This document shows positions 32,052-49,731 of a stretch of 64,000 nt of DNA, piece by piece. The notes beneath the pieces are model-generated. The model saw nothing but the letters and a program-made list of their open reading frames with translations, was not told the origin of the DNA and did no database searches. The position numbers were made by a program, and so were the translations under genes. How positions within the stretch are numbered: position 1 is the first letter of the stretch; every line of letters begins with the position of its first letter. The stretch is from Tieghemostelium lacteum (taxonomy: Eukaryota; Evosea; Eumycetozoa; Dictyosteliales; Raperosteliaceae): positions 868,001 through 932,000 of the forward strand of contig LODT01000006.1 of the NCBI GenBank assembly GCA_001606155.1, given 5' to 3'.

Positions 32052-32345
32052 TTATATTGTCCCACCTAAATTATTATTTAATAAATATAATGCATCCTAT
32101 AAAAATGAAATTTCAGTTAGTTTCACATAAAATACACAATTATATCCTGATATCATTATTAGAAAATTGGAGATCATTACTTGATATTTTCTTTCTTTTT
32201 CAACTGAATCATCACATGGTTGTTTAAAGGCAGTGTTTAATTTCGTTCTAAAAAATTCAAAATTTGTAAATTTTAATTCGGTATTTGCTTTTCTAACTAT
32301 AGATCTATAAACTCTAATTATTTGTTGATTACTTATGTTCCTCAT
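32052..32345 (-). CDS. Small LYR-motif mitochondrial protein (MIEF1-microprotein-like)
   Basis: Two exons, 32181-32345 and 32052-32096, joined by an 84-nt phase-0 intron (GTAATG...TATAG), encode 69 residues. The helical start NQQIIRVYRSIVRKANTEL holds a VYR variant of the LYR tripeptide; FEFFRTKLNTAF and DDSVEKERKYQDALYLLNNNLG complete the fold. Length and end (LGGTI) resemble the 70-residue human MIEF1 microprotein (ends LGRII), a mitoribosome assembly factor that pairs with acyl carrier protein. That specific orthology is inferred; the LYR family itself is clear. The start is the ATG at 32345; a longer in-frame extension has no ATG. Confidence 0.75.
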
Positions 32346-32632
32346 CTTTATGAATTGTCCAACTTTTTTTATTATAAAGATTGGAATTGGTTTGTTCAAC
32401 AAAAATAAAATAAAAAAAAATGTTCAGAAAAATTTTTTACACAATGATTATTATAAGTTGGCATGGTATAAAACAGGTTATTTATTTAAACATTTAAATT
32501 TATTTGAAAACCCAAGATTCATTCTTTTGAATATATTTAAATTTAAAACTATAGTTTATAAAGATTATAAATTAATATGTGTCATTGGATATGAGATCAT
32601 ATTGATATATCAAGTATAAAAATTATATTGTA

Positions 32633-33025
32633 TCAGAACTTCTTAGAATCTTTTGGTCCAACATGCACTGCTTCGGAACAGGTCTGTTTTTATCATCATA
32701 ACAATATAATATTTATACTATGAGGCAAACACTTACATAAATAAACTATTATTTTACATGAATTTAGCAAATTTGATAACCTAAAGTTTTAAAAAAAAAA
32801 TACTATATTTAATATTAATATTAACAAGTTCATTTATAATAAATAAATATTAATAGTAAATATAAAAATGATCAGCCAGTCCCCCAAGCTTTTTTGGCTA
32901 CTTGAGCAGTCTGCCCGTATCTTCAAGGTTTAACAGTTTCAAAAATCAGACTGGGGCGGGTATATATCATCATTACATTTTTATATTTACAATTGCATAT
33001 GAAAACTTACATTGTTAGTAGACAT
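32633..33025 (-). CDS. Candidate tiny spliced gene hosting a snoRNA in its intron
   Basis: A five-codon first exon (33011-33025, ATG TCT ACT AAC AAT) is followed directly by a GTAAGT donor. The nearest GC-richer block on the same strand (32633-32683, after AAAAACAG) gives the phase-0 peptide TCSEAVHVGPKDSKKF and a TGA stop. Intermediate exons are possible: a 23-nt exon after CTTTAG near 32785, or a 9-nt exon near 32750. The full protein is therefore uncertain, and I do not recognise it. The intervening DNA contains the snoRNA described separately, which makes a host-gene role attractive even if the peptide is minor. Confidence 0.35.
32856..32990 (-). ncRNA. Intronic box C/D snoRNA, predicted rRNA P-loop methylation guide
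   Basis: On the minus strand a perfect 15-bp terminal stem (32976-32990 with 32856-32870) encloses a C box ATGATGA (32967-32973) and a D box CTGA (32872-32875), each just inside the stem. Internal D' (CTGA, 32946-32949) and C' (TTGAAGA, 32920-32926) boxes are also present. The 11 bases CCGCCCCAGTC at the D' box are complementary to GACUGGGGCGG of the universally conserved P-loop (helix 80) of large-subunit rRNA. The fifth base above D' pairs with the second G of GGGG, the position equivalent to E. coli G2251, which is 2'-O-methylated; yeast snR67 is recalled to do this. The guide above D (GGGGGACTGG) has no target I can name. The block is GC-rich in an AT-rich intron. Confidence 0.85.
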
Positions 33026-33413
33026 CGTTCGTTTTTTAATAATAAATAAAAAAAAATTTTCCAAATCTTATTCGAAAAAATAAACAAAAAAAAAAAATAA
33101 ATGTTTTAAAAGTTTTTGTAAATATTTTGTAATTTTTTTTATAAAATAAGATCATATGTTGATTTGGAATATTTAATTGAATATTAATTTAAAAATGATG
33201 TAATTTTATACTAAGAAGTCTTGATATTTAAGATCTTATGGATAGTTTACGGAAAATTTCTTGATCATGATACATCATCAACAGTTAGATTTCTTTAATT
33301 TTTGTTTTTTTTTTCTTATTTTTTTTTTTTCAAGTTTTTTTTGTACAAGTAAATATCTGGAGTTGTGTTTAAAAGAGGTTTTATATTGAATATATATTAC
33401 CATTTTAAATTAG

Positions 33414-49382: not shown

Positions 49383-49441
49383 ACAGAACTCGAGGGATTT
49401 CAGAACATTTGAATTTGTTTGAATTGCTGTAAGAAGTTCTC
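49383..49441 (-). ncRNA. Class I-type small ncRNA, copy A
   Basis: On the minus strand the 5' end (GAGAACT) can pair with the 3' end (AGTTCT). Just inside the 5' stem is TCTTACAGCAA, one mismatch from the CCUUACAGCAA motif of dictyostelid Class I RNAs. The length of about 59 nt fits the known 42-65 nt. A DUSE-like box lies 59 nt upstream (49501-49507). Ends are estimated from the stem. A diverged second copy with the same promoter spacing lies at 49673-49731. Confidence 0.8.
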
Positions 49442-49672: not shown

Positions 49673-49731
49673 GCAGAACTCTAGGGTTTTCATAACATTG
49701 AATTGATTAAATTGTTGTAAGGAGTTCTTGC
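49673..49731 (-). ncRNA. Class I-type small ncRNA, copy B
   Basis: The minus-strand ends GCAAGAACTC and GAGTTCTGC form an 8-9 bp stem with one bulged A. CCTTACAACAA follows the 5' stem, again one mismatch from the Class I motif. The stem changes relative to copy A largely preserve pairing. The estimated length is 59 nt, and a DUSE-like box lies 59 nt above the aligned position. Confidence 0.82.

Follow-up and report, generated by a model that had tools for sequence, protein, structure and literature searches.

Methylation of the ribosomal P-loop G, a base in contact with the CCA end of the tRNA in the P site, is common to bacteria, mitochondria and the eukaryotic cytosol. Animal non-coding host genes of the UHG/SNHG type carry one snoRNA per intron and have short exons without a long ORF. 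In D. discoideum the site is Gm2952 of 26S rRNA, which was mapped by RiboMeth-seq and to which the C/D snoRNA CD13 is assigned by guide prediction; the available part of PMC8817022 lists it beside yeast Gm2619 (snR67), human Gm4166 (U31) and Arabidopsis Gm2610 (snoR35). Bacterial Gm2251 is equated with yeast Gm2619 and U31/snR67 in the available text of PMC7600485, where the human site is printed as Gm4196, and the human number thus differs between the two sources. The host organisation of U31-type snoRNAs is intronic in human and Plasmodium, polycistronic in yeast and clustered in Arabidopsis (PMC2656528). For D. discoideum, 46 of 47 C/D snoRNAs are described as intergenic, in equally spaced clusters, with CD38 as the sole intronic one (PMC8817022, partial text). 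In vertebrates, C/D snoRNAs lie at a set distance from the 3' splice site, and this distance is tied to their assembly via AQR/IBP160 (PMC8162545, partial text). The available part of PMC5295588 does not discuss snoRNA hosts, and no report of an intronic snoRNA organisation in another dictyostelid appeared among the matches listed.

We analysed a P-loop guide snoRNA within a window of Tieghemostelium lacteum DNA, i.e. the whole stretch of 64,000 nucleotides. The first-pass annotation had described a C/D snoRNA with a perfect 15-bp terminal stem and internal D' and C' boxes. Both points are borne out, since the C, D', C' and D boxes and the stem are all present, C' with one mismatch, and Rfam homology to U31 and DdR13 supports the assignment further. 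The strand, which that annotation did not give, is the minus strand. The features of the snoRNA are as follows.

32856..32990, minus strand: C/D snoRNA of the U31/snR67/DdR13 kind, from stem to stem, assigned by boxes, stem, chance test and Rfam
32976..32990, minus strand: terminal stem of 15 bp, 5' arm
32967..32973, minus strand: C box, AUGAUGA
32949..32959, minus strand: D' guide CCGCCCCAGUC, complement of the P-loop GACUGGGGCGG
32946..32949, minus strand: D' box, CUGA
32920..32925, minus strand: C' box, UGAAGA, one mismatch to UGAUGA
32876..32889, minus strand: putative second (D) guide GCUUGGGGGACUGG, read from the letters alone
32872..32875, minus strand: D box, CUGA
32856..32870, minus strand: terminal stem, 3' arm

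The two arms, 32856-32870 and 32976-32990, pair without a mismatch and join the C and D boxes as a k-turn requires. The mature RNA is probably shorter than 32856-32990, with the stem in part a processing stem. A search of the assembly (23.3 Mb in 43 contigs) found the snoRNA in a single copy. By eye, CAGUCUG (32946-32952, D' guide plus box) is seen to be complementary to CAGACUG at 32905-32911 of the same RNA, and this downstream stretch could fold back onto the D' guide.

The chance expectation for such an element is low. We scanned both strands of the window, accepting only exact C and D boxes that directly adjoin a Watson-Crick stem of 6 bp or longer. Two elements came out, with stems of 15 bp (the P-loop guide) and 10 bp (C box at 32699). 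In 40 simulated Markov-1 windows of 64 kb there were 0.025 elements per window at this stem length and none with a stem of 8 bp or more. The 15-bp stem appeared in none of 1000 trials with shuffled flanks, and for the 11-mer guide chance predicts about 6e-8 occurrences at 2-14 nt from any given C box. Folding alone separates the RNA from its shuffles only moderately on the minus strand (z -1.85) and slightly better on the plus strand (z -2.91). This lone-RNA result carries little weight either way, because in a C/D RNP the proteins hold the RNA.

The D' guide points to the P-loop. All 11 bases of the guide (32959-32949) match, as had been claimed, but the last of them is the C of the D' box and only 10 pairs lie outside the box, the pairing being judged against the published P-loop site. 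The fifth base above D' (32954) lies opposite the second G of ACUGG, which by the D+5 rule we take to be the target, the equivalent of E. coli G2251. The earlier choice of this G is thus supported by the guide register and by the D. discoideum counterpart with its mapped Gm2952 (PMC8817022, available part). In a 156-base search the snoRNA scored 27.9 bits against Rfam SNORD31 (E 1.2e-4; E 4.6e-4 in the other search; cut-off 40) and 23.7 bits against DdR13 (E 0.0043; cut-off 65). Both curated cut-offs are missed, and our claim is one of homology and like function, not of formal Rfam membership.

C box, spacer and guide are in register with both Rfam alignments. Compared with DdR13/CD13 of D. 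discoideum (RF01563), these three parts are nearly identical, whereas the 3' half does not align, and CD13 has further assigned targets, A1370 and A1463, to which the D guide here seems to have no such relation. With human SNORD31/U31 it shares the D' guide ACCGCCCCAGUC in the same register, but it is longer (91 nt from C to D) and its second guide differs from the SNORD31 consensus. The predicted methylation site is that of human U31, yeast snR67, Arabidopsis snoR35 and Plasmodium PFS5. The comparison thus supports a new orthologue of U31/snR67/DdR13 (CD13) at a site that is already known and widely conserved, and a further amoebozoan guide confirms this conservation. For the D guide, yeast 25S rRNA would presumably offer a pairing at about 2770, some 150 nt 3' of the P-loop, over 12 positions with five G-U pairs, which we give as a lead only.

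The rDNA itself seems to be absent from the assembly. The P-loop pattern GACTGGGGCGGT matched no place in it, GACTGGGGCGG was found only in the snoRNA itself, and one scan of the genome contigs for a eukaryotic P-loop stretch returned none. Scans of viral contigs returned neither a eukaryotic LSU stretch nor a C box with the P-loop guide. Extrachromosomal rDNA, as in D. discoideum (PMC8817022, available part), would explain the missing P-loop. A sarcin-ricin 14-mer with at most one mismatch matched three places (L002, L003 and L004), exactly at L002, which was rejected as rRNA since Rfam recognises no rRNA there. Positions 1484-1545 of L002 are antisense to the sarcin-ricin loop (GTTCCTCTCGTACTA) and bear no Rfam name; they are perhaps another guide RNA.

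Next to the P-loop guide lies a second C/D snoRNA, missed in the first-pass annotation, which is the DdR1-like element with the 10-bp stem. Both of its guide stretches resemble the Rfam consensus in the printed alignment. The two snoRNAs fit into the following proposed gene structure.

32781..33010, minus strand: proposed intron 1, 230 nt, GTAAGT...CTTTAG, holding the P-loop guide snoRNA
32737..32780, minus strand: proposed exon 2, 44 nt
32549..32736, minus strand: proposed intron 2, 188 nt, GTAAGT...CTATAG, holding the DdR1 homologue
32631..32702, minus strand: DdR1 (CD1/U61/snR56) homologue, C/D snoRNA with a 10-bp Watson-Crick stem (52.8 bits, cut-off 70, E 2.8e-8)

GTAAGT occurs exactly twice on the minus strand between 32423 and 33353 (0.134 expected; P for at least two 0.007 by simulation), each time exactly 31 nt upstream of a C box, that of the P-loop guide and that of the DdR1-like snoRNA. 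Sequence signals for a 5' and a 3' splice site surround each snoRNA. The earlier proposal of intron nesting gains support from this spacing and from that at other snoRNAs of the genome.

For these we searched the assembly for GTAAGT or GTAGGT followed by a C box and a D box, with reversed patterns as control. Matches numbered 10, 7 and 12 against 5, 11 and 2 in the control, an excess that exists only in the sum. Ten of the 29 matches were kept as snoRNAs, and the other 19, which had no stem, Rfam match or snoRNA neighbour, were dropped without each being disproved. Two were kept without an abutting stem or an Rfam match, namely the second snoRNA of L010 (boxes and neighbour) and L026 (boxes and a start in common with DdR2). 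The Rfam names among or beside the kept matches are DdR1, DdR2, DdR16, DdR5, snR78, SNORD74 and SNORD27, none above its cut-off. As controls independent of the donor, snoR38 gave no match by family or by guide pattern and DdR11 gave one by family, below the Rfam cut-off.

Twelve snoRNA candidates were then compared. GTARGT lies within 80 nt upstream in 11 of them, at gaps of 31-42 nt and once 59 nt; the exception is DdR11, with GTAAAT/GTATAA instead. Five of the twelve had been selected by the donor (DdR2, L010b, DdR16, L012B and a DdR3-like one). The seven others, which had not, carry GTARGT in six cases, against about 0.025 expected per snoRNA from the 43 sites on the two strands of the window. 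Independently of the donors, [CT]AG follows the D box at 73-95 nt in 11 of 12, L012A being without a YAG at this spacing. With shifted offsets the best YAG window equals 11 of 12 in 0.03% of 20,000 trials (p 0.0003 for any such window). The pyrimidine content before single acceptors is no better than in shuffles (p above 0.05 for 11 of 11), and the summed acceptor pyrimidine score, 150 versus 109 and reached by none of 1000 shuffles, is also raised whenever a YAG is present at all.

Modelling these signals, with acceptors chosen by hand, gives 12 introns of 181-230 nt at six loci with internal exons of 24-79 nt, and the longest ORF in the modelled spliced stretches is at most 41 aa. In the first intron of L007 Rfam recognises no snoRNA. 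The intron-like stretch upstream of DdR2 (L007 1653-1872, minus strand) has GTAAGT but no RNA known to Rfam, and could harbour an unknown one. L012 has a series of three C/D snoRNAs on its minus strand (1400-2200), each preceded by GTARGT; two of the three resemble SNORD27 and SNORD74. Shortly before the first donor, AAAAAACGA recurs at three snoRNA loci (window 33030-33040, L007 and L011) and is a possible start-site motif.

The modelled loci resemble UHG/SNHG hosts in having one snoRNA per intron, short exons without a long ORF and a constant spacing ahead of the 3' splice site (spacing rule in PMC8162545, partial text); they differ in their short introns of about 200 nt, which are here proposed from sequence. 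The spacing suggests that the same constraint on the distance to the 3' splice site acts in this dictyostelid. CD13 is reported as intergenic, in contrast to the P-loop guide here, which looks intronic, and an intronic origin in a non-coding host seems to depart from the D. discoideum report.

We consider it very probable that the P-loop guide is a U31/snR67/DdR13 orthologue which lies in an intron of an apparently non-coding minus-strand host and directs methylation of the P-loop G. Boxes, stem, guide, homology and splice-site-like spacing are observed, and expression, splicing, RNP assembly and methylation in this species would take the following course. The minus-strand host RNA, with the P-loop guide one intron upstream of the DdR1-like snoRNA and with short, apparently non-coding exons, would be spliced and the intron debranched. 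Stem and boxes would hold the snoRNA together while the intron is trimmed to a C/D RNP, with fibrillarin, NOP56, NOP58 and SNU13 as the expected proteins. The D' guide would base-pair with the P-loop of 26S rRNA, and the +5 rule would place the 2'-O-methylation by fibrillarin on the G that corresponds to E. coli G2251 and yeast G2619. The guide itself is real, ordinary and expected at a known site; the proposed gene organisation is the interesting part.

The strongest competing account is that the introns are part of the 5' UTR of the LYR-protein gene downstream (32052-32345, minus strand, ATG at 32345, two exons, 69 aa), with no separate non-coding host. The gene is on the same strand and its start codon is about 200 nt from the proposed last acceptor. 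However, several ATGs would precede the LYR start, an added MSTNN exon leaves the LYR match no better (14.3 versus 14.7 bits), and the five other snoRNA host loci are also without a long ORF in the modelled stretch. We regard this account as rather unlikely.

Less probable still is an independent, unspliced bicistronic transcript from which nucleases trim both snoRNAs, the GTAAGT motifs being a coincidence or processing signals. It would match D. discoideum, where C/D snoRNAs form intergenic clusters of two or three and all but CD38 lie outside introns (PMC8817022, partial text), and CCATAA, the DUSE core, is present at 33241 on the minus strand. This motif, however, recurs some 22 times elsewhere in the window and lies about 250 nt before the first snoRNA, whereas a two-C DUSE-like ACCATAAA stands 67 bp upstream of each of two Class I RNA genes in the window. 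The spacing of donor and YAG, found at 11 of 12 snoRNAs, also argues against such a transcript. The two Class I genes are listed here.

49384-49439, minus strand: Dictyostelium Class I RNA gene, above the Rfam cut-off
49674-49727, minus strand: Dictyostelium Class I RNA gene, above the Rfam cut-off

Together with their upstream motif, the Class I genes mark the DNA as dictyostelid. The two-C form of the DUSE is described for D. lacteum, for P. pallidum and for the greater part of A. subglobosum (PMC7919456, partial text). Finally, a nonfunctional element, either a degenerate snoRNA copy or a hairpin formed by chance, would fit the Rfam scores below cut-off and the mismatch in C', but is very improbable given the single genome copy, all four boxes, the perfect 15-bp stem and a chance expectation far below one.

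Beyond the non-coding host that we favour for the P-loop guide, a wider reading strikes us as evenly balanced. Many C/D snoRNAs of this genome (DdR1, DdR2, DdR5, DdR16 and the U31-, snR78-, U27- and U74-like ones) would sit one per intron in short-exon hosts that encode no protein, and 73-95 nt would separate the D box from the 3' splice site downstream. The 'intergenic, equally spaced' clusters of D. discoideum may be unrecognised spliced hosts of the same kind. If this is true, splicing-coupled C/D snoRNP assembly predates the split between Amoebozoa and animals, and its age becomes testable. A one-per-intron arrangement with a constant spacing to the 3' splice site would also mean that the intergenic description of Dictyostelium snoRNAs needs re-examination.

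The LYR protein encoded downstream matches mammalian AltMIEF1, the 70-aa protein of the MIEF1 upstream ORF, from end to end (E 2.2e-4); its score against Pfam Complex1_LYR_1, 14.7 bits, is below the cut-off. The MSTNN exon was rejected as its N-terminus, as the 69-aa ORF already spans the 70-aa AltMIEF1 and the Pfam score is not raised. An AltMIEF1-like LYR protein thus seems to have its own gene here.
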